NCBI RefSeq assembly: GCF_023701485.1
Contig: NZ_JAMQBK010000017.1
Coordinates: 1 to 64,000, forward strand
Direction of reading: 5' to 3'
Length of the DNA stretch: 64,000 bases
Source of the DNA: Aporhodopirellula aestuarii
GTDB lineage: Bacteria; Planctomycetota; Planctomycetia; Pirellulales; Pirellulaceae
Positions 18,166-58,010 of the stretch are shown one piece after another. The position numbers and the translations under genes are program-made. Each line of letters starts with the position of its first letter. Position 1 is the first letter of the stretch. Below the pieces are notes generated by a model that was given only the letters and a program-made list of their open reading frames with translations, was not told the origin of the DNA and did no database searches.

Positions 18166-18418
18166 AGCTGGACAGCGCAACTTTTCACGTAGCTCGGTCT
18201 CTGGGGACATCGATTTAATTACTGCAGGATTTCAAAAGTAGCGGAACGGCGCGAGCCGTCCGGTAACTCGGGACCGGACGGCTTGCGCCGTTCCGCTAAA
18301 AAAAGCACTAATACAATCAACGTCCCCCGCGACCGAGAATGGCGGGCGTTACCCGCCTCCGGAGCTCGGAGTAACTCAGCTTCTTGAGAGACGAAACTTC
18401 AATACGTCTGCGAGAGCG
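18166..18418. repeat. Composite repeat: terminal-repeat element with a nested palindromic module
   Basis: The left end agctggacagcgc (18166-18178) matches the terminal repeat of the 3076-3243 and 20622-20767 elements. After cacgtagctcggtct the sequence diverges into a palindromic module (about 18201-18330) with 25-bp arms, agcggaacggcgcgagccgt onward (18240-18264) and its near-perfect complement (18273-18297). It then returns to sequence shared with 20664-20755 (gcgggcgttaccc, caatacgtctgc). The layout looks like one repeat inserted into another. It begins 4 bp after the stop of the cytochrome gene. Confidence 0.75.
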
Positions 18419-43660: not shown

Positions 43661-45226
43661 TCAAGACACGGTTCTGGGCAACGTGCCGGGTGAGTCAATT
43701 CCGGAACCCGCCGCATGATCGGTGCCCGCGATGTCACCGAGCTTGATGTAGGCGGCGTCGTTGCTGGCGACTTCAATCTTCATGAACTCATCGGCGGCAG
43801 CAATGTCACCCAACTTGATGTAGGCGGCGTCGTTGCTGGCGATTTCAATCTTCATGGATTCATCCGCGGCGGCAATGTCACCAAGCTTGATGTAGGCGGC
43901 GTCATTGCTGGCGACTTCAATCTTCATGAACTCATCGGCGGCAGCAATGTCACCCAACTTGATGTAGGCAGCGTCGTTGCTGGCGATTTCAATCTTCATG
44001 AACTCGTCCGCGGCGGCAATGTCACCGAGCTTGATGTAGGCGGCGTCATTGCTGGCGACTTCAATCTTCATGAACTCATCGGCGGCAGCGATGTCGCCCA
44101 GCTTGATGTAGCCCGCATCGTTGCGGAGCCCGTCGAGTTTCAGGAATTCGTCCGCAGCGGCAATGTCACCGAGCTTGATGTAGGCGGCGTCATTGCTGGC
44201 GACTTCAATCTTCATGAACTCATCCGCGGCAGCGATGTCACCCAACTTGATGTAGGCGGCGTCGTTGCTGGCGACTTCAATCTTCATGAACTCATCCGCG
44301 GCGGCAATGTCACCCAGCTTGATGTAGGCGGCGTCGTTGCTGGCGATTTCAATCTTCATGAATTCATCCGCGGCGGCAATGTCACCCAGCTTGATGTAGG
44401 CGGCGTCATTGCTGGCGACTTCAATCTTCATGAACTCATCGGCGGCAGCGATGTCACCCAACTTGATGTAGGCGGCGTCGTTGCTGGCGATTTCAATCTT
44501 CATGAACTCGTCCGCGGCGGCAATGTCCCCCAGCTTGATGTAGGCAGCGTCGTTGCTGGCGATTTCAATCTTCATGAACTCATCGGCGGCGGCGATGTCG
44601 CCCAGCTTGATGTAGCCCGCATCGTTGCGGAGCCCGTCGAGTTTCAGGAATTCGTCTGCAGCAGCAATATCACCGAGCTTAATGTAGGCGGCGTCGTTGC
44701 TGGCGATTTCAATCTTCATGAACTCGTCCGCGGCAGCAATGTCACCGAGCTTGATGTAGGCGGCGTCGTTGCTGGCGATTTCAATCTTCATGAACTCATC
44801 GGCGGCAGCGATGTCACCCAGCTTGATATATTCCGCATCGTTGCGGAGCCCGTCGAGTTTCAAGAATTCGTCTGCAGCAGCGATGTCACCGAGCTTGATG
44901 TAGGCGGCGTCGTTGCTGTTGGTGTAGTTTTTGAAGAACTCATCGGTGGCATCCGGACTGATGTCATGGACTGGTCGATCGGGATCGCCTTCCAGAAATC
45001 CTTCATGCAATCTGAGGTCGTGAGGGGACTCCACAATGGCTGGCCCATGCGACTCCACTGGCGCCAAATCCCGGGTGTGAAGGTCAGTCGGCATGACCCA
45101 TCCGACGGACGTCAATAGGTTTCGATTTTCGAGTGACTCGAATTGCATCGAGCGACGTACTTGCGAAGAAGTCGATTCGCGTTGAGAACTGGATTCTCTG
45201 ATGAATCCTAGGAGTCGTTTGAACAT
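43661..45226 (-). CDS. LEPR-XLL protein made of seventeen 24-residue repeats
   Basis: A 521-residue protein. The ATG at 45226 follows AAGAGG at good spacing. After a basic N-terminus comes the planctomycete motif FESLENRNLLTSVG, then a unique region of about 65 residues with HDISPDATDEF. Seventeen tandem repeats of 24 residues follow, consensus DEFMKIE(I/V)AS + NDAAYIKLGDIAAA. Three carry a variant DEFLKLDGLRNDA(G/E) half, and one has DESMK. It ends in a short Pro/Ser tail. The net charge is acidic, and repeats are almost identical, also at DNA level (72 bp, about 43725-44945). The strings YIKLGDI and FLKLDG recall the first strand of Hcp (T6SS tube) proteins, but no complete Hcp domain is present. 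Probably exported; function unknown. Confidence 0.8.
   Translation of the reverse strand: MFKRLLGFIRESSSQRESTSSQVRRSMQFESLENRNLLTSVGWVMPTDLHTRDLAPVESHGPAIVESPHDLRLHEGFLEGDPDRPVHDISPDATDEFFKNYTNSNDAAYIKLGDIAAADEFLKLDGLRNDAEYIKLGDIAAADEFMKIEIASNDAAYIKLGDIAAADEFMKIEIASNDAAYIKLGDIAAADEFLKLDGLRNDAGYIKLGDIAAADEFMKIEIASNDAAYIKLGDIAAADEFMKIEIASNDAAYIKLGDIAAADEFMKIEVASNDAAYIKLGDIAAADEFMKIEIASNDAAYIKLGDIAAADEFMKIEVASNDAAYIKLGDIAAADEFMKIEVASNDAAYIKLGDIAAADEFLKLDGLRNDAGYIKLGDIAAADEFMKIEVASNDAAYIKLGDIAAADEFMKIEIASNDAAYIKLGDIAAADEFMKIEVASNDAAYIKLGDIAAADESMKIEIASNDAAYIKLGDIAAADEFMKIEVASNDAAYIKLGDIAGTDHAAGSGIDSPGTLPRTVS
43725..44945 (-). repeat. Coding tandem repeat, 72-bp unit, about 17 copies
   Basis: A 72-bp unit (for example catgaactcatcggcggcag, caatgtcacccaacttgatg, taggcggcgtcgttgctggc on the plus strand) repeats without indels. 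Substitutions are mostly synonymous (gcg/gca, gtc/gtt), apart from three divergent half-units at about 44105-44140, 44608-44645 and 44835-44865. The strong homogeneity implies recent expansion or gene conversion. Confidence 0.92.
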
Positions 45227-46452: not shown

Positions 46453-49400
46453 CTATTTCCGCGTTTGGAACATTTCCATAATCAGATCTTCTCTCGAAAA
46501 GAAATCATCGTGTTCGTCTCGCTTGGAGCTCTCGTCCTCTTGCTGCCAAACCACGAAGGTATCACGTCCGGAACCTCCCCGTAAATCATCGCGAGACGAA
46601 TCTTTTCCGCCATCGAGGAAGTCATTTCCAGCACCACCGATGATTTTGTCACAGTTTGTTCCGCCGAATAGCTCATCATCTCCATCACCACCCTCGATCA
46701 CCGACGCGAGTGTTGTTTCGTTGCGGATCACATCATTCCCAGCACCCCCGATCACATGGATTGATTGGACTTTTGAGAACGTCTGCTTGTCCAAGAGGTT
46801 GCCTTTGGCGTCCATTTGAAGCAGATAGATCGCCTTGGCGTCCTGCGTGAAACCAACGGATTGTCCCCCATCATTGAGTCGAACATTTAGAACGCCATCG
46901 ACGACCGCTGCGCGTACTTTTGACTCCTGGTCCACCGCTGCCGCGTCGGTCTCGGATTCGTCTGCGTGTGTGTCGTGGTTGCCTTCTAACGTTGTCGTCA
47001 TGGAGATCAGGACATCGCCGGGGCCGCCAAAGGGATTGTCTCGATTTTCACGCCAGAGTTGATAAGGGTTCTCGCCATCTTGATACAGTTGGTTGACAGC
47101 TTCGTCGAGTTCACTCTCATCCTGCAGTTCGCCGAGACCGGAAGCGTAGTCCAGGCCTGAGCCGCCGGTTGCACTAGCCGAAGCATTCAAATACATCCAA
47201 TCATCGCCTTCGCCACCGTGTAATTCTACCGCCCCATGTCGAGCGTACAGCTCATCATGGCCCTCACCTCCCTGTAGCAAATCATTGACGGTCTGGGGTC
47301 CATCGGCCAAGCCCGAATCAAGATGATCATTTCCCTCATCTCCGTGAAGTTCATCCGAGCCACTGCCGCCATCTAAGAAGTCATCTCCGCCACGACCTTC
47401 CAGGATGTCGTCACCCGCGTCACCGTAGAGGTGGTCTGAGAGCGAACCGCCATAAATCCAATCGTCGCCCGCGCCCCCGTGAGCTTCGTTCTGATACGTC
47501 ACTCCATCGTTGACTGAACTCGTCCCCGAGGGAATCAACGAGTCGACAAAGATCACGTCGGCGTCGGCGTCACCGAACAGATGGTCCCTGCCTTCACATC
47601 CGGCAATCAAGTCCGATCCACTTCCGCCATAGAGTCGATCATTACCGGAGCCGCCCTCAATGCGTTCCATCAGTGTCAACATTTCATCGAGTTCCAGCGG
47701 CGCGGAGGGATCATAGACGAACGGGTTTTCGCCGCCATGGATTTCGTCGTCGCCATCGTCGCCAAAGAGCACATCCGTGCTGCCTCGACCGTAGATCAAA
47801 TCGTCGCCATCACCGCCTTCAATGTGATCGGCCGCATCCCCGCCAATCAGGAAGTCCCGTCCGTTGCCGCCGAAGAGTTGCGAGGGGATGTTCGTCTGGT
47901 TCAAGAACCAGTCCGCCCCGGCGCCGCCGTCGAAGATGATCTCATTCACGTTCGCGAACGTCACTTCATGGAACACACCGCTCCAGGTCTGATCGCTAAT
48001 GACTCCGACAGGAGACGTGAAGCCTGAGTAAATGCTCTGTCGAAGGACAACGTTACCAAAATCATCTGGTGTGACGAAGACGGCGTCCCCAATCGCGGAT
48101 CCATGGATGGTGAGCACGCCATTCTCGTACTCAGTATGGACGATCGCGTGAACCCAATCGGCGTTATCTGTTTCATCCGACATGGCGGTGCCATCCATCC
48201 AAACGTCTTGTTCGATCAAGAACCGGCCTTCGCTCTCGCTAAACGCTGGCATCCCATCCAAGTGATCGCTACCTTCGCCAGAGTAGTACGTGTCAGCTCC
48301 CAGCCCACCACTCAGGTCATCATCCAAGTGGCTGCCAATCAGAAGATCATTTCCGGTGTTGCCGAATAGTGAGACCGAACTGTGGTTGAGCGCAAACGGT
48401 CCCAGGATGTCGTCGCCTGCTCCGCCATCAACGAGATCTTTCCAGTCTCCAGCCATGATCACATCTTGTCCCGATCCACCCGCCAAGTAGTCTCGGTCAC
48501 CATCGTCGGCTGCGACCAACACGTCGGCTCCTTCTTGCGAGCCAGCGAACTGCAAGAGAGCATAAGGGCTGGTAGGAAGATCGACGTTGCTGACCATTTC
48601 GGGGTTGTCACCCCCGAACAAATAGTCGATGCCATCACCGGCAATCAACACGTCGGCACCCTGATCGCCGGTTAGGTAATCATTGCCACTGCCGCCATCC
48701 AGGTGATCATCGCCAGAGCCACCTTGAAGGACGTCCTCGATGCGGATTCCCACGGCCTGAGCAAAGAAGCTGGGCATGTTGTCGATGAACGCGGCGTCTT
48801 CAAATCCGTGAACGGCTACATAATCCTGTATCGATTGTTCGGTGTACTCAGGAAACTCTTCACGAAGCCATTCTAAGTCTTCCTCATCGATACCCGCGAC
48901 TTCGTCAAGGAAGTCGTTATCGAGAACGTGGATGGCGTACTCACCATTGTCATCCCCGTAACCGTTGGCTCCGTGCAGGAAAGAGCCCGATGTGCTTGCC
49001 ATCAGATTGTCGACGATCTCGTTCTCTTCGGCGTCGTCACCATACAAGGCATCGTTTCCTTGGTTGCCTGCGAGCGCGTCGGGCCCGTTTCCTCCGACCA
49101 AGATGTCATTGCCCGTGCCGCCGATCACTTCGTCAGCATCTCCCTGTCCCAGCAGATAGTCCGCATCAGCGCCGCCCAAGAGTTGATCTCGTCCGTCGCC
49201 ACCGAACATGACCTGAGTGCCATCATCGCCAACCAATTGGTCGTCTCCGCCTCCACCGAAAAGAATATCCCCCGGCAGATCCATCGTCGCGATGGTTGAA
49301 ATCTGATTCAGATCATTCATCGCGATCAGCGTCGCATCGGCAATGGCGGGATCCGCAAAGGTCGTCACGGTGGAACTGGATCCCGATTCGATGACGTCGT

Positions 49401-49779
49401 TTCCAGACCCACCGATGATCACATCGTCACCGTCACCACCTGACGCAATAACTGGAATCGAAGTCCGATTCGCAAAGACGTCGTCACCATCCTTGAGGTC
49501 GACCTCAATGGAGGTGACTTGATCGAAGCTGTGGGACTGGATTGGATTATCGAAAGCGTCATATTCCGTCACGACCGTTTGCCCATTTTCAGTCGCCACG
49601 ACGACATAGTCTGGATCGTTTGTCCCGTCGATCTCCAGTTCACCGGTGGTGTTGTCGAACAGGACCGCAGTCAACATCGCACGACGCTCAAGCGATTGAA
49701 TTTTCAACTGTCCCCGTTTTTGCGATTTGGTCCGATTTCTTTTTTTTGCAGGGATTTTCGCGAATATTTGGCGCAACAT
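46453..49779 (-). CDS. RTX-type (hemolysin-like) calcium-binding surface protein
   Basis: An 1108-residue acidic protein. The basic N-terminus ends in IQSLERRAMLTAVLF (about 28-42), a LEPR-XLL-type motif. At least five clusters of RTX nonapeptides (GGxGxDxUx) are visible, for example GGSGNDVIESG, GGGGDDQLVGDDG, GGSGNDYLTGDQG, GGAGDDWIYGGS, GGAGNDVIRNE and GGAGNDFLDGG, giving parallel beta-roll blocks that fold on binding calcium outside the cell. Between them are non-repeat stretches that occur twice (QTVVTEYDAFDNPIQ- and VHTEYENGVLTIHG-like). The ATG follows AAGGGGG. RTX proteins are normally exported by type I secretion, and a TolC/ABC/HlyD set lies at 58034-64000. No catalytic domain is recognised. 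Confidence 0.9.
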   Translation of the reverse strand: MLRQIFAKIPAKKRNRTKSQKRGQLKIQSLERRAMLTAVLFDNTTGELEIDGTNDPDYVVVATENGQTVVTEYDAFDNPIQSHSFDQVTSIEVDLKDGDDVFANRTSIPVIASGGDGDDVIIGGSGNDVIESGSSSTVTTFADPAIADATLIAMNDLNQISTIATMDLPGDILFGGGGDDQLVGDDGTQVMFGGDGRDQLLGGADADYLLGQGDADEVIGGTGNDILVGGNGPDALAGNQGNDALYGDDAEENEIVDNLMASTSGSFLHGANGYGDDNGEYAIHVLDNDFLDEVAGIDEEDLEWLREEFPEYTEQSIQDYVAVHGFEDAAFIDNMPSFFAQAVGIRIEDVLQGGSGDDHLDGGSGNDYLTGDQGADVLIAGDGIDYLFGGDNPEMVSNVDLPTSPYALLQFAGSQEGADVLVAADDGDRDYLAGGSGQDVIMAGDWKDLVDGGAGDDILGPFALNHSSVSLFGNTGNDLLIGSHLDDDLSGGLGADTYYSGEGSDHLDGMPAFSESEGRFLIEQDVWMDGTAMSDETDNADWVHAIVHTEYENGVLTIHGSAIGDAVFVTPDDFGNVVLRQSIYSGFTSPVGVISDQTWSGVFHEVTFANVNEIIFDGGAGADWFLNQTNIPSQLFGGNGRDFLIGGDAADHIEGGDGDDLIYGRGSTDVLFGDDGDDEIHGGENPFVYDPSAPLELDEMLTLMERIEGGSGNDRLYGGSGSDLIAGCEGRDHLFGDADADVIFVDSLIPSGTSSVNDGVTYQNEAHGGAGDDWIYGGSLSDHLYGDAGDDILEGRGGDDFLDGGSGSDELHGDEGNDHLDSGLADGPQTVNDLLQGGEGHDELYARHGAVELHGGEGDDWMYLNASASATGGSGLDYASGLGELQDESELDEAVNQLYQDGENPYQLWRENRDNPFGGPGDVLISMTTTLEGNHDTHADESETDAAAVDQESKVRAAVVDGVLNVRLNDGGQSVGFTQDAKAIYLLQMDAKGNLLDKQTFSKVQSIHVIGGAGNDVIRNETTLASVIEGGDGDDELFGGTNCDKIIGGAGNDFLDGGKDSSRDDLRGGSGRDTFVVWQQEDESSKRDEHDDFFSREDLIMEMFQTRK

Positions 49780-49895
49780 GTTGTGGCCCCCTTCTAAAAG
49801 GTGGTGTTCGACATCCGTTCATGCGGATGGAAACATTCTTGCTCGATCTAAAGGAGCAAGCGGAAGCCACGCGATGGTGTTACATTTCATTGAGC

Positions 49896-50997
49896 AGGAA
49901 GGTCCTTCCCAATTTGCGTTTGCACGCGGATAGGTATTTCGATGCTGGGGCTCTGCGGGGCGTCGCATACTCGGGCGTAGATGGGTGTGGGATGGAAGCC
50001 GCAGCGAAGCATCTCGACAGTTCTGTCGTTAACCACATCGTTTCGATCATTGACCGCGATGACGATCGGCCAGTCTGGTTTTGCACTTGGGGCGGCGGCA
50101 ACACACTCGCGGCGGCTGTGGTGAAGGTCAAGAAGGAACGGACAGCCGCAGAGGCGAATGCTCTCGTAGCGACGATTCGTGGATACGAAATTGGTATTCA
50201 AGACGAGGGCTTCGCGTATATCGCTCACGAGTTTCCCGACGCGAAGCTGATTTCGGCAAAGCTGCTGTGGCGTGGAATTTCATGTACGACGCCAAAGTTC
50301 AACAAGTGGCCGGAGACCAGGGGAGGTAACGATGAAATGTTTGATGCCGAGTGGGTACAGCGGAACGTGCAAGCGGGGCACGGACCTCTCGGCGAACAGT
50401 ATTTGCCCGCAGAGTATTTGCACGAAGGCGATACGCCGTCGTTCTCGTACCTGATTCCAAACGGGCTGCACTTTCCTGAACACGTTGACTTCGGTGGCTG
50501 GGGAGGTCGCTTCGCACCGAAACGACAGTTGAATGTTCGCACCGGAACAGGGAACGAGACTGTTGATCCGCTGCTGGACCAACAACGAGACTACGCGGTG
50601 TTTTCAGACACGAAAGATTCGTGGACGTACAACGGAAAGACGTATGGCAACGAGTTCTGCACGATCTTTCGTTGGCGGGAAGCATTTCAGAACGATTTCG
50701 CCGCTCGCATGGACTGGTGCGTCAAGCCGTACGACCAAGCCAACCACAATCCGGTCGCGATCGTCAACGGTGACAAAACTCGCGGACTCATCGAAGTGAA
50801 AGCGTCCGCGGGAACGGAATAGGAACTCGATGCGTCATCGTCGAGAGATCCGGATGGCGACAGGCTCAACTATTCCTGGTGGGTGTACGACGAATCGGGG
50901 GCATACGAAGGTACCGTCAAGATTATAAATTCAGCAGCGTCCAAGTCGCTTGTTCAGATTCCGAGTGATGCTGCGGGCAAGGACTTTCATGTCATCG
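49896..50997 (+). pseudogene. DUF1593 (nucleoside-hydrolase-like) gene remnant
   Basis: From about 49896 the plus strand encodes VLPNLRLHADRYFDAGALRG, DRDDDRPVWFCTWGGGNTLA, EANALVATIRGYEIGIQDEG and HFPEHVDFGGWGGRF, all typical of DUF1593 (PF07632) proteins. The N-terminal part with the Asp-rich nucleoside-hydrolase motif is missing; upstream codons overlap the RTX gene on the other strand and are unrelated. An in-frame TAG (50820-50822) interrupts the C-terminal Ig-like domain, which continues as SRDPDGDRLNYSWWVYDESG and SDAAGKDFHVIG. Homology stops at about 50997, where a palindromic repeat begins. The gene is thus cut at both ends and has a nonsense mutation; almost certainly not functional. 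Confidence 0.82.
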
Positions 50998-51115
50998 GGA
51001 CGTCGATTGTATTACTGAAGGATTTCAAATGTAGCGGAACGGCGCGAGCCGTCCGGTGACTCGGGACCGGACGGCTTGCGCCGTTCCACAAAAAAAGGCA
51101 CTAAAACAATCAACG
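50998..51115 (+). repeat. Palindromic repeat module disrupting the DUF1593 remnant
   Basis: cgggacgtcgattgtattac, tgaaggatttcaaatgt, then arms 51033-51056 and 51067-51087, an A7 tract and cactaaaacaatcaacgtc: the same order as at 18201-18325. The remaining stretch to 51247 has no gene. Confidence 0.85.
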
Positions 51116-51247
51116 TCATCCTGACATTGACCGATGATGGCAGGCCACAACTGACGAGCTATCGCCGAATGCTGGGGCGTGTTGACTAGCGAATTGCGAT
51201 TGCTTCGTTGGCATCCAAGACCGTAGCAAGAATTCTGACGAACTCCA

Positions 51248-51916
51248 CTAGACTTCAACGTCAAACCCCGCCGCTCTCCACTCAGGCACGCTGAATCTCA
51301 GCCGTTGAGATTTGAAACGGTGGTCCCGTAACCAATGGGTGCCTGCCATCGCGGCGGCACAGTAGGGACCACGACAATAAACAAACATCGGCGAGGATTT
51401 TGGCAACTGATTTGCTTGTTCCGTGAGTACAGCAAAGGGGACGCTGCGTGCTTTGGGTAGATGCCCCTCCGCGAATTCATTGGTTGGCCGCAAATCGACC
51501 AGCGTGAACCGTCCGCGATCCAATTTCTGGTGAAATTCCTCGATTGTCAGTGGCGACAGGGCATCGTCGGCATCAAATTCTTCTCGAACGACTTCGCGAA
51601 TCTCTGGCACGATGGTTTCTCCCAAGTCGCGAAACCTGAGCCACAGTTCGGCAACTATCGGATCTGCTAACGAACAGAAAACGCTGCGTCCCCGTTTGTC
51701 CGTCTTCACTAGATGTGAGTTTCGCAAAACCTTGACGTTGGCGCTGGCCGCCGCGAGCGACTGGTCTGTCAATCGTGCCAGCTCGTCGATCGACTTCTCG
51801 CCCTGCGTCAGGCTGCCCACCATTTTCAGGCGATGCGGATTGGATAATGCTCCACCGATTTCAGCGAGTTGCTGAAAGATCGCAGCCTGCCTTGTTTTGT
51901 CGAGCACGGTCGTCAC
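51248..51916 (-). CDS. ArsR-family regulator fused to a rhodanese domain
   Basis: A 222-residue protein. Residues 12-100 are an ArsR/SmtB winged helix (LAEIGGALSNPHRLKMVGSL, recognition helix near SLAAASANVKVL, wing TDKRGRSVFCSL). Residues 120-222 are a rhodanese domain with LVDLRPTNEFAEGHLPKARS and active-site loop VYCRGPYC (Cys181, Cys186). The fold is known from regulators of sulfur metabolism genes; ArsR relatives such as SqrR/BigR sense persulfides, and here the rhodanese Cys could do so, with Cys81 in the wing. The start is GTG at 51916. It is divergent from the persulfide-dioxygenase operon and probably represses it and itself. Confidence 0.9.
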   Translation of the reverse strand: MTTVLDKTRQAAIFQQLAEIGGALSNPHRLKMVGSLTQGEKSIDELARLTDQSLAAASANVKVLRNSHLVKTDKRGRSVFCSLADPIVAELWLRFRDLGETIVPEIREVVREEFDADDALSPLTIEEFHQKLDRGRFTLVDLRPTNEFAEGHLPKARSVPFAVLTEQANQLPKSSPMFVYCRGPYCAAAMAGTHWLRDHRFKSQRLRFSVPEWRAAGFDVEV

Positions 51917-51954
51917 CAGGATCGGGAAATAAAAGTCTCAGTAAAAATACTAGC

Positions 51955-52063
51955 TGAATGACGACAGATAGTCAATGAATGTCTTGAACGTTTGAGTTTT
52001 CGGTTTTCCGTTTGGCGGATGAATGACTGCGATGCTCATAGACTCAAAGAAGTCATTGAATGT
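51955..52063. promoter_or_regulatory. Candidate ArsR operator repeats in the divergent promoter region
   Basis: TGAATGAC occurs at 51955-51962 and 52020-52027; agtcaatgaatgt (51970-51982) and agtcattgaatgt (52051-52063) match at 12 of 13 bases. Within the first pair TGAATGAC and GTCAATGA form an imperfect dyad (51955-51978), of a size and AT content usual for ArsR operators. They lie between the divergent regulator and operon (gap 51917-52196). Binding is inferred. Confidence 0.45.
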
Positions 52064-52196
52064 TGGCGAGGGAGCCTGCAATTGGCCCTGAATTTGCAAT
52101 CACTGACCGGAGCGGGTTCGCCGGAACAGTTCGCCCACGAAGAATTTCTAGCGAAGCCCACAAATCCGCCCTTTCCCTTTCACGGAGACCCTATTG

Positions 52197-53756
52197 ATGG
52201 CTACGTTCAACCGCCGCGAAGTCTTGCAGCACTCTGGAGCCCTGGGGCTGGGTGCGGCTTTCCTTCCCGCTATTGCGTCAGTCGCAACGGCTGCGGAGAA
52301 ATCCACTGCAGCGAAACCGCCTAGCAACGTCATTTTGGAAACGATCAAGTCGGGCGGGTTGTCGCACTACTCTTATTTCATCGGTGACAAAGACGCCGGG
52401 GTGGCGGTCGTCATCGACCCTCGCCGTGACGTGCAAGCCTATTTGGATCTCGCCAAGAAGCATGGCCTGAAGATCACACATGCCATCGAAACCCACGTCC
52501 ATGCAGATTTTGTTTCGGGGGCACGCCAATTGGCAAAGCAATCCGGAACCGCGCGAATCGCAGCCAGTGTCGAAGGGGAGCCAGGGTACGGATTCAAGGT
52601 TGATCGACCGCTTCGTGACGGTGACGAAATCAAGGTTGGCAGCATCCGCCTGCGTGGCATTCACACGCCGGGACACACTCCCGAGCACATGTCGTATCTG
52701 GCGTCGTCGGGCGACAAGAGTTGGGGGATCTTCACGGGCGACTTCTTGTTCATCGGTAGCGTCGGACGTCCCGACTTGATGGGCGTCGAGAACACGGACT
52801 CGCTCGCCAAAGCTCTATATCGCAGCGTGCAGAATGCGTTCACCCAATTACCGGGGGAACTGATGATTTATCCGGCCCACGGCCCCGGTTCACCTTGCGG
52901 TGCTGGAATTAAGGCTCCCGAAGGCGATCCGACACTGGCCCAAGAGCGAAAGGGGAATCCCTACTGGCGAATGAACGATGAAGACATGTTCATTGAAGCG
53001 TTGTTGGAGGCTCAACCGCCGGTGCCCTACTACTGGCCGCGGATGAAGAAGGAGAACGCGGCAGGTCCAGAATTATTGTCGACTGATCGGCAGCCCGAGC
53101 TGGTCAGTCCCGACAAATTTGAAAAACTGATTCAGTCAGGCGACATTCAATTGCTCGACACGCGGTCGATGCACGCTTTCGCGGGCGGTCATGTCAGCGG
53201 TGCGATGAACATTGGCTACAACGAAGTGATTTCCATGTGGGGTGGCTGGATGCTGGACCCTGACAAGCCGATCGCGATGATGAAACCAGCGGAAGGGAAC
53301 TACCGTGATCCCGTCGATTGGTTGGCTCGCGTCGGTTTGACAAACGTCACGACCGGATTGAAGGGCGACATGAAAGCGTGGGTCAACTCAGGACGTTCGT
53401 TCGACTCGTATGCGACCATGACTGTCCAGGAAGTTCACGAGCGTTTCCCGAGTGATCAGATGACGTTGTTGGATGTGCGGCAGCCCTCGGAATGGGACAT
53501 GGGACATCTGCCGGGAGCTCAGTATTTGTTTTTGCCAGAGATTCCCAAGAAGCTCGATCAAGTCGACAAAAGCAAACCTGTCGTCGTGTACTGCGGAAAC
53601 GGCTACCGAGCGAGCATAGGGACGAGTGTGTTACGCGCCAATGGATTCGATGCCCGTAGCGTACCGGGATCGTGGGACGCATGGGTGGCGGCCGGATACG
53701 ACGGCGTGAAACCGGATCATCCCGGCAAGGCCAGCGATACGTCGAGGACGGCGTAG
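52197..53756 (+). CDS. Exported persulfide dioxygenase-like metallo-beta-lactamase protein with two rhodanese domains
   Basis: A 519-residue protein. The N-terminus NRREVLQHSGALGLGAAFLP is a Tat-type signal ending about residue 34. Residues 45-290 are an ETHE1/persulfide-dioxygenase-like metallo-beta-lactamase domain: THVHAD (99-104), HTPGHTPEHM (third His) and TGDFLFIGSVGRPDL. Two rhodanese domains follow. The first (about 305-405) lacks the active-site Cys; the second (about 415-510) has VVYCGNGYRAS. Fusions of this enzyme with rhodanese are known in sulfide/persulfide oxidation, but export is unusual. The ATG at 52197 has GGAGA upstream. First gene of the putative sulfur operon; 52 bp precede the next gene. 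Confidence 0.88.
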   Translation: MATFNRREVLQHSGALGLGAAFLPAIASVATAAEKSTAAKPPSNVILETIKSGGLSHYSYFIGDKDAGVAVVIDPRRDVQAYLDLAKKHGLKITHAIETHVHADFVSGARQLAKQSGTARIAASVEGEPGYGFKVDRPLRDGDEIKVGSIRLRGIHTPGHTPEHMSYLASSGDKSWGIFTGDFLFIGSVGRPDLMGVENTDSLAKALYRSVQNAFTQLPGELMIYPAHGPGSPCGAGIKAPEGDPTLAQERKGNPYWRMNDEDMFIEALLEAQPPVPYYWPRMKKENAAGPELLSTDRQPELVSPDKFEKLIQSGDIQLLDTRSMHAFAGGHVSGAMNIGYNEVISMWGGWMLDPDKPIAMMKPAEGNYRDPVDWLARVGLTNVTTGLKGDMKAWVNSGRSFDSYATMTVQEVHERFPSDQMTLLDVRQPSEWDMGHLPGAQYLFLPEIPKKLDQVDKSKPVVVYCGNGYRASIGTSVLRANGFDARSVPGSWDAWVAAGYDGVKPDHPGKASDTSRTA

Positions 53757-53808
53757 CTTTTCCGAAGCTGATCCCACTACGAGTATCACTCACACAAGGA
53801 ATCCAAAC

Positions 53809-55491
53809 ATGAATATCACCTTCGGCGTTGCTGCCGTTCTGATCGGATGCTTCACCATGATCGGTGTGGTATCCGCTACGGAACCAAACTCAAACGAAGA
53901 AAAGGCAGACGGGCGTGTGAAAAAGTTTTCGATCGCGTTCGTCAACGACATTCACGCTCAGCTTGAACCTCATCCAGAACTTTACTGGAACGAAGACGAG
54001 GCACAACGTGAATTACGAGCCGGCGGATTGAGTCGCATTAAAACCGCATTCGACCAACTCGCCGCTGACCGCCCCGACGGAATGTTAAAGATCGACGGAG
54101 GCGACACGTTTCAAGGTAGTGGCCCCGGCGCATGGACCGAAGGCGAAGTCATGATCCGTCCGCTCAATGCCTTGGGACTCGATATGGCGATCCCCGGCAA
54201 CTGGTCGGTGGTCTACGGTGCCGAGCGTCTGCGCGCGATTCGCGACGAAGTGAATTATCCGATCATTGCGGCGAACATCTACGATGAAAGCTCGGGTGAA
54301 CGAACATTCAAGCCAACGATGGTCAAAGAAATTGGCGGCGTGAAGGTTGGGCTGGTCGGATTCACCGATCCCGATGTGCCTTCACGCCAACCCCCGTTCA
54401 TGAGTGAGGGGTTGAAGTTCAAAGCCGATGAAGTGTTGCAACCACTGATCGACGATCTGCGTCAGAACCAAAAGGTCGACATCGTCGTGCTGGTCAGCCA
54501 CATCGGATTGCACAAAGCGGTACCGCTTTCCGCGAAGCTCAATGGTGTCGATATTCATCTGTCGGCGGACACGCACGAGCGGACCTACGAACCGATCGTG
54601 GTCGGTGACACGTGGGTCGTCGAAGCGGGGGCATTCGGATCGTTGGTTGGTGTGATGGATGTCCAGGTTCGCGACGGCAAGGTCGTCGACCGCAAGTGGG
54701 AACTGGTCGAGTTGCGGGAAGACAAGTTCCCAGAAGACAAGCAAGTCAAACAGATCGTCGATGACGCTCTCTCACCGCACCGCGAGCGGATGAATCGCGA
54801 GATCGGGCACACGGACATCTGGCTCGAACGCTACAACGTGATGACATCGTCGATGGACCGCTTGATCGCCAATGCAGTGAAAGAGGCAGCCGATGTCGAT
54901 GTCGGGCTGAGCAACGGATACCGCTTCTCACCTCCCACGGCTCCCGGCCCAATCACCGAAGCGGATTTGTGGAATTGGTTGCCGATCAAGCTAGACCTGA
55001 AAACAGGCGTCGTCAAAGGGCAGCAGTTCATCGACTACTGGGAGAGCGAATTTGAAAACGTGTTCTCGTCCGACCCTGACCGGCTTTACGGTGGTTGGTT
55101 GGCGCGGCCGTCGACGAACATGCAGGTACGTTTCGATTCGACCGCAGAATCGGGAGATCGCCTGCGAAGTTTGACGATTGACGGCGACGACGTTGATCCT
55201 AAGCAGGACTACACGATTGCCGCAGGTGCGAGGAAGGGCCAGCCCGAGAATCAAATCCATCGTATGCAAGAATGTCGCACGACGAAAACGTTGAAGAAAA
55301 CGACACATGATGCGGTTCGCGATCATCTCGCCAAACCGCACGACTCGGACCACGACTCCGAACCACCGGTGAAGTGCGTGGTGCGAGGCGATCAATTGCG
55401 ATCGCAATACCAGACGTTCATCAAGGAGCGTCAGAAGGCGCGCAAGCAAGACAAGTTAGAGGGTGAGTCGGTGCTGCCCCCGAAAAAATAG
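53809..55491 (+). CDS. SoxB-like / 5'-nucleotidase-family metallophosphoesterase, exported
   Basis: A 560-residue protein with a signal peptide (1-23) and the two-domain 5'-nucleotidase architecture. Metal ligands are seen in FVNDIHAQLEPH (Asp47, His49), IDGGDTFQGSG (Asp99), IPGNWSVVYG (Asn131), LVSHIGLH and SADTHERT. In nucleotidases the loop reads GNHE; here it is GNW, and the flanking WxxxYG resembles the SoxB sulfate thiohydrolase loop, as does the DGGDTFQGSG form. The C-terminal domain spans about 340-530. SoxB releases sulfate from the SoxY carrier in thiosulfate oxidation, but no soxXYZA genes lie here. In this sulfur context a SoxB-like hydrolase is more likely than a nucleotidase; not certain. 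Confidence 0.8.
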   Translation: MNITFGVAAVLIGCFTMIGVVSATEPNSNEEKADGRVKKFSIAFVNDIHAQLEPHPELYWNEDEAQRELRAGGLSRIKTAFDQLAADRPDGMLKIDGGDTFQGSGPGAWTEGEVMIRPLNALGLDMAIPGNWSVVYGAERLRAIRDEVNYPIIAANIYDESSGERTFKPTMVKEIGGVKVGLVGFTDPDVPSRQPPFMSEGLKFKADEVLQPLIDDLRQNQKVDIVVLVSHIGLHKAVPLSAKLNGVDIHLSADTHERTYEPIVVGDTWVVEAGAFGSLVGVMDVQVRDGKVVDRKWELVELREDKFPEDKQVKQIVDDALSPHRERMNREIGHTDIWLERYNVMTSSMDRLIANAVKEAADVDVGLSNGYRFSPPTAPGPITEADLWNWLPIKLDLKTGVVKGQQFIDYWESEFENVFSSDPDRLYGGWLARPSTNMQVRFDSTAESGDRLRSLTIDGDDVDPKQDYTIAAGARKGQPENQIHRMQECRTTKTLKKTTHDAVRDHLAKPHDSDHDSEPPVKCVVRGDQLRSQYQTFIKERQKARKQDKLEGESVLPPKK

Positions 55492-55635
55492 ACTCGCTTT
55501 CCGTATGCACGCTCAACGTATTGGGCTTCGCCAGAAGTCCCTGTTGCTGCCGGAACCTGCTTGGACCGTTGTAAATCGACTTCACTAGGGAACTCTGACG
55601 AGTCCCACCACTCACGTAACTCTAGGAAAACTACC

Positions 55636-56178
55636 ATGACCAAGAAAATACTCACATCGTTGACGCATGTTTTTATCATCGCCGTCACCTTCTTCACCGC
55701 ACCGACCTTCGCCGCACCTCCGGCACCATCGCTCGAGTCAGATACCGACGATCGCCCTGTCATCCAGCTCGAACACAAAGGGCCAGTGAAAGTGGTCTAT
55801 CAGGTGAGCGAAGACAAATGGAAAGACGGCGTTGGCAAGGCGTTTCTCTATTTGAAGAACCTTCGCGGCTATTACGCAAAACAGGGCATCGAAGGTGACC
55901 AATTAGACATTCATGCCGTCGTTCACGGCGACGCAGCGACGCACGTTTTGACCGACGAAGCTTACAACCGCGTCAAGGGAGTCGACACAGGCAACCCGAA
56001 TACGAAGTTGCTTTCAGAGCTGAAGGAGATGGGGATCCAGGTTGAACTGTGTGATGTACGTCGGCAACGCGAAGGCTGGTCAAAGTCGGACATCCACGGC
56101 GACGTTCAGTTGGCCGCTGCGGCGTACGCCAGAATCATTGACTTGCAGCTCCAGGGCTACGCGTACATCAAGTTTTAG
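55636..56178 (+). CDS. Exported DsrE-like sulfur-carrier protein
   Basis: A 180-residue protein with a signal peptide (TSLTHVFIIAVTFFTAPTFA) followed by a DsrE/DsrF-like domain (PF02635): VKVVYQVSEDKWKDGVGKAF, LDIHAVVHGDAATHVL, ELKEMGIQVELCDVRRQR, LQLQGYAYIKF. The single conserved Cys in VELCDVR occupies the place of the persulfide-bearing Cys of DsrE/TusD proteins. The ATG at 55636 has AGGA at nine bases. It lies 144 bp after the SoxB-like gene and 53 bp before the thioredoxin. A periplasmic persulfide relay from the rhodanese domains is the natural reading, inferred from context. Confidence 0.85.
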   Translation: MTKKILTSLTHVFIIAVTFFTAPTFAAPPAPSLESDTDDRPVIQLEHKGPVKVVYQVSEDKWKDGVGKAFLYLKNLRGYYAKQGIEGDQLDIHAVVHGDAATHVLTDEAYNRVKGVDTGNPNTKLLSELKEMGIQVELCDVRRQREGWSKSDIHGDVQLAAAAYARIIDLQLQGYAYIKF

Positions 56179-56231
56179 GCCGATCTTGTGTCTTGCGAAT
56201 CCCACTACGAAGAGACGAAAGCAGGAATGCT

Positions 56232-56783
56232 GTGAACGAAGAACGAAGAGTCGCGTTGGCAACGATCAAGGAAGTCCAACGCGGAGTTGATTTGGCCAAT
56301 CGCGTCCCCCGCTTTCGAGCGATCACCGTACTCGCAATGGTCGCCGTGAGTAGTGGTGTGTTTTGCATCGGTACTTCTCACTGTGCCGAAACAAAACCGC
56401 TCCTGTCGACCTCCGGTGTTTCAGCTGACGCAGACACTAGCGAGGTCAAATGGCTCACCGACTTTGAGCAAGCGATCGTCAAAGCGAAACGACTTGAACG
56501 TCCGCTACTGATCGACTTCGCCGCCTCCTGGTGTGTGCCGTGTCGAATCATGGACAAGAAGGTATGGCCCGACGCATCGGTTCAAAAAGCTCTCGAAAAT
56601 GAAGTCGTCCCGTTGCGGGTCGACATGGACGGGAAACACGCCCCGCCGCTGATCGAGAAATTCAAGGTCGAATTCGTGCCAACGATTCTGATCGTGGACC
56701 AAAACGAGAACGAACTTGCCAGAGAGGGATTCGTCAATGCAGAGGAGTTCCTGGAGATGACTAGAAAGCTACGCAAAGAATAG
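56232..56783 (+). CDS. Exported or membrane-anchored thioredoxin-like protein
   Basis: A 183-residue protein. GTG at 56232 with AGGA upstream is the preferred start; a TTG at 56193 extends the frame without support. A hydrophobic segment (RAITVLAMVAVSSGVFCIGT) anchors or exports a thioredoxin-fold domain: LLIDFAASWCVPCRIMD with the redox pair C-V-P-C, the cis-Pro region FVPTILIVD, and a final helix. This form resembles the DsbD gamma domain and TlpA-like thioredoxins. As the last gene of the sulfur operon it could reduce rhodanese or DsrE persulfides or disulfides outside the cytoplasm. Confidence 0.87.
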   Translation: MNEERRVALATIKEVQRGVDLANRVPRFRAITVLAMVAVSSGVFCIGTSHCAETKPLLSTSGVSADADTSEVKWLTDFEQAIVKAKRLERPLLIDFAASWCVPCRIMDKKVWPDASVQKALENEVVPLRVDMDGKHAPPLIEKFKVEFVPTILIVDQNENELAREGFVNAEEFLEMTRKLRKE

Positions 56784-57121
56784 CATTTGCCAACAGGTTC
56801 ATCCCGTTAATCGTGTTTGCTTCTAGGCTGCCTTCCGGGATTGAATCGAAATACCGCTGGAACAAGCCACTCAACCGCATCTGATCTTGCCGCAGTGGGC
56901 GCTGGTTGAGCTTTCCATCCGACAGCAGGAACACAGGCGGGTCGGCCGCTTCCGGAACTTCCAGTCGCCCGCTCGCGACGAGTTCAATGTTCCTGCAACC
57001 GACGCAGCTTAGTTTCGGCCCGACCAAGCACTTTCGTCTTGAGCGATCGCTTGTACCTGTGGCCGCCGTAGCGGAAGCACACGTGATAGTTGCCGGACGG
57101 ATCAGTCTGTAGTGAAGCCAT
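56784..57121 (-). pseudogene. Truncated, frameshifted tyrosine-type integrase
   Basis: The ATG at 57121 has AGGGAG eight bases upstream. The first frame reads MASLQTDPSGNYHVCFRYGG and YKRSLKTKVLGRAETKLRRL, an N-terminal arm-binding domain of phage-type integrases, then stops after LQEH. A shift to another frame at about 56990 continues with IELVASGRLEVPEAADPPVF, LLSDGKLNQ and YFDSIPEGSLEANTINGM, the start of the core-binding domain. The catalytic domain is absent; the remnant ends against the thioredoxin gene stop. It lies 171 bp from the 3' end of tRNA-Leu, the normal place for an island integrase. Confidence 0.8.
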
Positions 57122-57242
57122 GTTTGCTCTCCCTTGGATTGGGACGTGAGCGTAGGCAGGGCGACGTTGCCCAGACCAGCGACGCAGATGCAATGCAGGT
57201 GCAAGGTTGCCACTGATTTGTCACTGATCTTTCTGAGCGACC

Positions 57243-57278
57243 AAAAAAAAGGACTCAGGCCAATCGACCTAAGTCCTT
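57243..57278 (-). terminator. Rho-independent terminator after tRNA-Leu
   Basis: On the minus strand aaggacttagg pairs with cctgagtcctt around a short loop (arms 57268-57278 and 57249-57259, one G-T pair), followed by a run of T residues (57250-57243). It lies 13 bases downstream of the tRNA 3' end. Confidence 0.85.
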
Positions 57279-57291
57279 AACTCGTAAAGAG

Positions 57292-57375
57292 TACCGAAGG
57301 AGGGACTCGAACCCTCACTGGATTGCTCCAACTGGATTTTGAATCCAGCGCGTCTGCCAATTCCGCCACTTCGGC
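57292..57375 (-). tRNA. tRNA-Leu (anticodon CAA)
   Basis: An 84-base class II tRNA. The acceptor stem is gccgaag/cttcggt (G1-U72 wobble, discriminator A73, CCA not encoded). The anticodon stem-loop ctgga-ttcaaaa-tccag gives CAA, reading UUG. There is a long variable arm, and the T-arm is gaggg-ttcgagt-ccctc. The integrase remnant lies just past its 3' end, making this gene the likely attachment site. Confidence 0.96.
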
Positions 57376-57584
57376 TTGTGAGTGGGGATTATTGTGGACG
57401 GGGCGGGTTCTTGCAAGAGCCGTTAGAGACATCCTTTTGGCTTCCAAAAAGGACGTTTTGACCGCGGTCTTTCAATCGGCAAGATCGTCAAATTCGCCCG
57501 GTTTTCGACCGTCTGTGCCCTTTTTCGATCGGGGGCAACCGGTCGCTTGATCGCAAAGACGCGTGTTTCGTCCAACCTGAACTT
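57376..57584. other. Intergenic region upstream of tRNA-Leu
   Basis: No gene or repeat seen; should contain the tRNA promoter on the minus strand. Confidence 0.4.
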
Positions 57585-58010
57585 GAGGGTTGCTGGAACC
57601 GGAGGGCTCGCGCCCTGCCGCTAAAAAGCTTAGCGGAACGGCGCGAGCCGTCCGGTGTCACCCTGAGTCTTAAAGTTTACTAGACAGAAGACATGGCCAT
57701 GAGGGTTGCTGGAACCGGAGGGCTCGCGCCTTGCCGCGAAAAAACTTAGCGGAACGGCGCGAGCCGTCCGGTGTCACCCTGAGTCTTAAAGTTTACTAGA
57801 CGGAAGGCATGGCCATGAGGGTTGCTGGAACCGGAGGGCTCGCGTCCTGCCGCGAAAAAACTTAGCGGAACGGCGCGAGCCGTCCGGTGTCACCCTGAGT
57901 CTTAAAGTTTACTAGACGGAAGGCATGGCCATGAGGGTTGCTGGAACCGGAGGGCTCGCGTCCTGCCGCTAAAAAACTTAGCGGAACGGCGCGAGCCGTC
58001 CGGTTTCACG
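57585..58010. repeat. 116-bp tandem array carrying the palindromic repeat core
   Basis: Units starting gagggttgctggaaccggag at 57585, 57701, 57817 and 57933 give a period of exactly 116 bp for about 3.7 copies. Each unit contains gcggaacggcgcgagccgtc, the arm of the dispersed palindromic module, opposed by ggagggctcgcg, and a spacer with cctgagtcttaaagtttact. Units differ by only a few bases. The array lies just downstream of the tolC-like gene stop. Confidence 0.92.

Follow-up and report, generated by a model that had tools for sequence, protein, structure and literature searches.

The window analysed here, a 64,000-nucleotide stretch from Aporhodopirellula aestuarii that is part of a 9.07-Mb planctomycete draft genome (G000, contig C75), carries a compact set of five genes related to sulfur metabolism. 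These encode an ArsR-type repressor fused to a rhodanese domain, a persulfide dioxygenase, a SoxB-like hydrolase (SoxBL), a DsrE-family protein and a thioredoxin (Table 1). Our preferred reading, to which we give a probability of roughly 0.55, is that they form a sparse module, regulated by sulfane sulfur, for the SoxYZ-independent oxidation of reactive sulfur outside the cytoplasm. The five genes themselves were confirmed and had been read correctly. Open reading frames (ORFs) were found where a first-pass annotation of this DNA had placed them, the intergenic gaps that it gave (53757-53808, 55492-55635 and 56179-56231) agree with the ORF starts, and profile matches recovered all of its domain calls (ArsR plus rhodanese, metallo-β-lactamase (MBL) plus two rhodanese, SoxB-like, DsrE and thioredoxin). 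The data below also support its broader proposal of one sulfur module with export signals and no SoxYZ nearby; the genes co-occur recurrently, and no SoxYZ was detected elsewhere in the genome.

The module is rare, being found in 2 of 392 genomes of the phylum, with the source genome included in this and the following counts. Searches with SoxBL, which took in no other species of the same genus, gave matches at 1e-20 in 8 of 146 genomes of the order, the other seven being 27-30% identical. At 1e-30 there were matches in 11 of the 392 phylum genomes, where G497 alone was close (62%) and the rest were 27-29% identical. A scan of GTDB r220 with two peptide patterns, made on one genome per species and perhaps omitting near records, led to four more loci: two in Rhodopirellula maiorica SM1 (L032 and L033), one in Roseimaritima sediminicola (L034) and one in Alienimonas chondri (L035). 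The fifth other locus is L021 in G497, whose SoxBL is the closest tree row to that of A. chondri. No relative was found in the viral contigs searched, and G118 has a SoxB-clade protein with no further module match on its 10.3-kb contig.

Gene order is conserved among these loci. The full order, with a divergent ArsR-rhodanese gene and then the Tat-type dioxygenase, SoxBL, DsrE and thioredoxin genes, is seen in the window, L034 and L021. L032 and L033 have the four enzyme genes in the same order, the contig of L033 beginning within the dioxygenase gene, and L035 has the regulator, dioxygenase and SoxBL genes followed by the contig end. The dioxygenase gene is ahead of SoxBL in all five other loci (one cut by the contig start), and DsrE and thioredoxin genes lie downstream of SoxBL in 4/4 whose contig extends there. 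The thioredoxin frame is interrupted in L033 and the thioredoxin of L021 is only 33% identical. The divergent regulator gene is present in three of the four other loci that cover its position, the match in L032 being a 20-residue remnant. SoxBL is retained in all six module copies. The first-pass annotation had suggested a neighbourhood check for co-occurrence; by this check the set is rare, yet a close SoxBL is always accompanied by other members as far as the contigs extend.

We also inspected ten plasmid SoxB-like loci, taken from the top 12 among 280 records and belonging to Bacteroidota, Bacillota and Alphaproteobacteria. Their gene tables are incomplete, and the counts are of genes listed in the stretch inspected. 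DsrE is listed in seven of the ten, an MBL-fold hydrolase in five, a thioredoxin, TlpA or Dsb protein in seven and a c-type cytochrome in five; soxY or soxZ is listed in none of the ten. On Runella plasmids the order is cytochrome, DsrE, SoxB-like, porin and YeeE/YedE, and in R. rosea the cytochrome has a SoxA/TsdA domain.

SoxY (PF13501) and SoxZ (PF08770) gave no match in any of six genomes, some of them drafts, while a Paracoccus plasmid used as a control was positive for both. Five of the six have the module (G000, G497, R. maiorica, Roseimaritima and A. chondri) and one, G432, has a type-2 SoxB-like gene only. The SoxA scores in the source genome were 32.4 bits, for a TsdA homolog, and 19.5 bits, below the cut-off of 110 (control 237.6). 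The statement that no SoxYZ carrier lies nearby held, and neither SoxY nor SoxZ was found elsewhere in this genome. The TsdA homolog is a dihaem cytochrome (C99:212598-213425, L102; 4wq7 at 8e-34) and is not linked to the module. TsdA-like proteins are present in G000 and also in Roseimaritima (G527), with a fragment in G526.

The alignment and tree place SoxBL with the SoxB lineage in a broad sense, away from the 5'-nucleotidases. In a tree of 35 proteins with all rows kept, SoxB, SoxB-like and module proteins are on one side (22 rows, 100/99), apart from the 5'-nucleotidases. The module proteins group with one Pontibacter and two Runella proteins (100/99), and the SoxB-like set joins the module at 98/95. 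The catalytic His of 5'-nucleotidases follows a metal-binding Asn (GNH). At this His position, Trp occurs in 22/22 SoxB-side rows (six module, eleven plasmid SoxB-like and five SoxB-clade) and His in 13/13 others (UshA, nine planctomycete nucleotidase-like and three type-2 rows). The preceding residue is a nucleotidase-like Asn in all six module proteins and in five of the plasmid ones; the rest have the SoxB-like His, giving a mixed motif. A PDB sequence search with SoxBL gave SoxB 2wdc as the best match (174 bits), the best nucleotidase scoring 123.5. Given Trp at the catalytic-His position and the tree placement, we rejected the reading of SoxBL as an ordinary 5'-nucleotidase. The 27-29% identical phylum matches were rejected as module relatives, since the nine aligned nucleotidase-like rows have GNH. 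Type-2 SoxB-like genes, present in G497 and G432, have this motif too. This second type (GNHD) adjoins a second-type DsrE gene, convergently in G497 (L020:15586-17977) and on the same strand in G432 (L023:8910-11366).

The first-pass annotation had assigned export signals to all of the enzymes, and the four enzymes do have a hydrophobic stretch near the N-terminus. The maximum 15-residue hydropathy there is 1.91, 2.59, 2.05 and 2.23 in gene order, with 0.97 for the regulator, so that, read from the N-terminal sequence, the four enzymes are probably exported. The Pfam Tat models gave no match at 0.001 to the module proteins. The dioxygenase starts MATFNRREVLQHSGALGLGAAF, and the RR pair is kept in 5/5 module copies complete at that end. 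This protein combines an MBL domain with two rhodanese stretches, and its closest solved sequence relatives, 3tp9 and 3r2u, match over nearly the full profile. H100, H160 and D182, which we take to be the iron ligands by likeness to ETHE1, and the rhodanese cysteine C466 are invariant in 8/8 rows of an alignment from which L033, cut by the contig start, was omitted. It thus has the features of a CstB-like enzyme, with an MBL domain, a rhodanese without Cys, a rhodanese with Cys and His/His/Asp. In the phylum scan, 12 other dioxygenase places align from residue 34 or later only, and plasmid relatives (25 matches listed of 128) from residue 28 or later only. Judged from these alignments, the signal part is not common to the relatives, which says nothing on whether each relative has some signal. 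A periplasmic enzyme from Acidithiobacillus ferrooxidans, purified in 1987 and mentioned in PMC5584763, was named sulfur dioxygenase, and the phrase "periplasmic sulfur dioxygenase" occurs in five papers. A dioxygenase outside the cytoplasm is therefore less than fully novel. A phrase search of the literature found "periplasmic", "secreted" or "exported persulfide dioxygenase" in no paper.

C139 is the only cysteine of the window DsrE protein and is invariant in 5/5 module orthologs. The CxxC of the thioredoxin is kept in 4/4 complete rows, and its nearest solved relative is the C-terminal domain of DsbD. L035 was omitted from both alignments because of the contig end, and the interrupted L033 from that of the thioredoxin. 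No PDB sequence match to DsrE was found at 0.01. DsrE matches were found in 24 genomes, four alone (G000, G497, G490 and G428) at an identity of at least 39% and the rest weaker. One idea is that the exported DsrE takes the place of SoxYZ as a sulfur carrier with a single cysteine. Its C139 would hold sulfane sulfur, which the exported dioxygenase would oxidise in place and SoxBL release, in a cycle without cytochromes. We think this rather unlikely. The invariant C139 and the presence of DsrE near plasmid SoxB-like genes fit, without demonstrating, a role of DsrE as SoxY substitute, and since the DsrE-SoxB link recurs on plasmids and in G432, the carrier idea stays alive. If true, it would describe a minimal extracytoplasmic sulfur-oxidation cycle. 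A second-type, exported-looking DsrE is encoded with a signal-less CstB-like protein and small YeeE/YedE-look membrane proteins on contig C148 of the source genome, and a similar set occurs in G519 (L074).

The regulator matched the ArsR helix-turn-helix model NF033788 with 61.4 bits against a cut-off of 55 and is 55-61% identical to the regulators of three module copies. C181 and C186 are invariant in 5/5 rows, including one for a Bosea plasmid. Alignment of the divergent promoters brought out an inverted repeat that has a single pattern match in the window (Table 1) and is confined to the same intergenic region in L034 (two sites), L035 and L021. It is thus found in the divergent promoter of all four module loci with an intact regulator, which count as about three independent cases because L035 and L021 are close relatives. 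The pattern scan found no site in L032, with its regulator remnant, or in L033, L020, L071 and L040. The ArsR-rhodanese gene of the Bosea locus L040 is intact and 37% identical, so conservation of the operator-like site does not extend to this distance. A promoter-like match facing arsR, 51975-51947(-), shares bases with the candidate operator; there are four promoter-like matches in 51100-57450 and 2.6 in shuffles, hardly any excess. This arrangement suggests autorepression of the regulator gene at the candidate operator. R. maiorica holds two paralogous module copies, L032 with the regulator remnant and without the operator-like site, and L033 with the interrupted thioredoxin frame.

Table 1. 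Positions in the window of the module genes, the candidate operator and the neighbouring integrase remnant and tRNA gene
Feature	Position	Strand	Basis and remarks
ArsR-type repressor fused to rhodanese domain	51248..51916	-	ORF and domain matches; rhodanese loop CRGPYC
Candidate operator GTCAA-N8-TTGA(A/C)	51971..51988	.	In divergent promoter; overlaps -35-like hexamer of promoter-like match facing arsR
Tat-type exported (predicted) persulfide dioxygenase - pseudo-rhodanese - rhodanese, CstB-like	52197..53756	+	ATG start; domains, 3tp9/3r2u
Exported (predicted) SoxB-like hydrolase, SoxBL	53809..55491	+	SoxB model, alignment, tree
Exported (predicted) DsrE-family protein, sole Cys C139	55636..56178	+	ATG start; DsrE domain, ortholog alignment
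Exported or membrane-anchored (predicted) thioredoxin, CVPC	56232..56783	+	GTG start 56232; alternative TTG 56193 possible
Remnant of tRNA-Leu-associated tyrosine integrase	56794..57121	-	Two frames; similarity to residues 1-110 of relative
tRNA-Leu (caa)	57291..57375	-	

The protein families suggest substrates, a sensing step and an order of reactions for such a module. The ArsR-rhodanese repressor would sense persulfide through its rhodanese cysteines and then free the divergent promoter. The DsrE cysteine or small thiols would bind sulfane sulfur in persulfide form, this sulfur being that of a persulfide or polysulfide or the inner atom of tetrathionate or a thiosulfonate. SoxBL would cleave the terminal sulfonate of S-sulfonated sulfane (tetrathionate or thiol-S-sulfonate) to sulfate and so bare the sulfane sulfur, and the Tat-exported dioxygenase would use O2 to convert the persulfide to sulfite. 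The active rhodanese of the dioxygenase may combine sulfite with sulfane sulfur to give thiosulfate, and the thioredoxin would reduce spent disulfides. Overall this would be analogous to the TsdA-SoxB-Sdo pathway of Erythrobacter flavus, shifted entirely outside the cytoplasm.

Several points weigh against oxidation by an extracytoplasmic module of this kind. The score of SoxBL with the SoxB model TIGR04486 (4e-84, 282.8 bits) is far below the equivalog cut-off of 550. A Foldseek search with the SoxBL model placed the nucleotidase 3ive at the top, with SoxB entries beginning at rank 4. The AlphaFold models are poor (mean predicted local distance difference test score 57.9 for SoxBL and 49.1 for DsrE), and because the SoxBL model is poor and the scores are similar, the ranking does not separate SoxB from nucleotidase. 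G490 has a DsrE relative that is 53% identical and has no recognised sulfur neighbours, and 3/10 of the plasmid loci inspected list no DsrE. There is no cytochrome within the module. TsdA is a family trait, being found in 24 of the 146 order genomes (14 of them in the same family, the source genome included), among which a close SoxBL occurs in the source genome alone. G497 and A. chondri (G528), both with the module, gave no SoxA/TsdA-domain match, so TsdA is no fixed partner of it. Relatives of the dioxygenase act on glutathione or coenzyme A persulfides, which are perhaps scarce outside the cytoplasm. The bacterial relatives covered by PMC5584763 and PMC11507549 are described in those papers as predicted cytoplasmic.

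The module might instead follow a carrier-free tetrathionate route exactly as in Erythrobacter, where an unlinked TsdA would make tetrathionate, SoxBL would turn this into sulfate and zero-valent sulfur and the dioxygenase would oxidise the sulfur, with DsrE and thioredoxin as accessories. This is a real possibility that we hold only tentatively. The genetics of E. flavus, as presented in PMC7608252, support such a route. TsdA-like cytochromes are present in the source genome and Roseimaritima, and in Runella rosea a SoxA/TsdA-domain cytochrome is directly ahead of DsrE-SoxB-like, whereas G497 and A. chondri keep the module without that domain and the DsrE and thioredoxin genes are kept wherever the contigs reach them, with the interruption noted in L033. 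CstB-like enzymes, like repressors of the ArsR type, are characteristic of sulfide detoxification, so the genes could also serve to detoxify persulfide or polysulfide or to repair thiols of the envelope, with thioredoxin, DsrE and dioxygenase clearing sulfane sulfur and SoxBL acting as a minor phosphatase. A second locus in the source genome, G000:C148:33017-37959 (L071:7018-11960), points in this direction, since it has a signal-less CstB-like gene, YeeE/YedE-like genes and DsrE with no SoxB match. SoxBL, which does not have the nucleotidase catalytic His, is nevertheless kept in every module copy, and we judge this explanation unlikely.

It is very improbable that the genes are chance neighbours gathered in an island beside tRNA-Leu. 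The integrase remnant, the tRNA-Leu gene and the rarity of the module in the phylum would fit such an island, but the conservation of gene order in other genera contradicts it, and neither a tRNA gene nor a match to the window integrase occurs in the fetched stretches of the other module loci. The first-pass annotation had noted an integrase scar next to tRNA-Leu, and a remnant in two frames was indeed confirmed. It resembles residues 1-110 of a relative with a 387-residue frame, and some 10 bases separate its end from the stop codon of the thioredoxin gene. Its first 45 residues, a piece with no Pfam match, led to seven other places in 40 related genomes, and each of the five that were fetched is beside tRNA-Leu, at 145-198 bases (169 bases here). 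The remnant and these relatives indicate that an element once used tRNA-Leu, and it is plausible that an integrated element brought the module. A search that covered the window, allowing as many as 3 mismatches in 24 bases, found no second copy of the tRNA end as an attachment site. In a search for an empty site the TolC-side neighbour was too divergent in relatives (best 51%).

Repeats and two other genes were observed around the module. A 32-nt repeat with the core GGAACGGCGCGAGCCGTCCGG flanks it at 51027-51058 and 57584-58000, and the exact core is also found at 18243 and 36641. The right-hand repeat belongs to a 116-bp tandem array that lies between tRNA-Leu and an outer-membrane efflux gene. 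A 72-bp tandem repeat array at 44000-45019 has 11 register copies in the stretch searched. A Sde182-type nucleoside-hydrolase-like protein (49542-50822) matches profile positions 56-268 only, so its N-terminus seems truncated. From its translation, a 1108-residue protein at 46453-49779 (-) has many calcium-binding-type GGxGxD repeats.

If oxidation outside the cytoplasm without SoxYZ is the right reading, it points to SoxB-lineage enzymes that work without SoxYZ in Planctomycetota and to a dioxygenase located outside the cytoplasm. Counting soxB, or requiring soxYZ, would lead a survey to miscount such organisms. It also raises the testable question of what carries sulfur when SoxYZ is absent. 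Among the titles found in searches of open-licence papers, none was on a SoxYZ-independent SoxB-type pathway in Planctomycetota.

The first-pass annotation had known of no described pathway with exactly this set. The statement needs qualifying: E. flavus 21-3 has a SoxB homolog without a Sox complex together with MBL-rhodanese dioxygenases (PMC7608252), so the claim can extend no further than the exact set. According to the published descriptions, TsdA of that strain turns thiosulfate to tetrathionate, SoxB then yields sulfate and zero-valent sulfur, and the enzymes that oxidise this sulfur further, SdoA and SdoB, contain dioxygenase as well as rhodanese domains (PMC7608252, PMC9426585). Its SoxB is annotated as a bifunctional metallophosphatase/5'-nucleotidase and the Sox multienzyme complex is reported absent (PMC7608252). 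The module resembles this TsdA-SoxB-SdoA/SdoB system in having a SoxB homolog without SoxYZ and an MBL-rhodanese dioxygenase, the likeness in SoxB being by published description. It differs in the Tat-type signal of the dioxygenase, in TsdA being unlinked or not found, and in having the exported DsrE, thioredoxin and ArsR-rhodanese genes in the cluster. DsrE, ArsR and signal peptides go unmentioned in the main text of PMC7608252, although its gene map (Fig. 3b) or supplements may include such genes.

With the Sox system (SoxXA-YZ-B-CD) the module shares a SoxB relative, predicted here to be exported, and the sox genes of Paracoccus that we inspected likewise have ArsR and thioredoxin genes at their flanks. 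By contrast, SoxY and SoxZ were not found here and SoxA was below its cut-off. The dioxygenase has the domains of CstB and other MBL-rhodanese dioxygenases (3r2u, 3tp9), namely MBL, a Cys-less rhodanese and a Cys rhodanese, but differs in its predicted export signal. The clusters on Runella, Pontibacter, Hymenobacter and Sphingobium plasmids are similar in that a SoxB-like gene occurs with DsrE, often with MBL-rhodanese and thioredoxin genes, and no soxYZ is listed. However, several of them also have YeeE/YedE, TauE, cytochromes or a porin, and two Runella rosea dioxygenases start without a signal. Together, these comparisons suggest that the module looks like an exported variant of a SoxB-type pathway that does not depend on SoxYZ, one in which DsrE and thioredoxin are constant partners.

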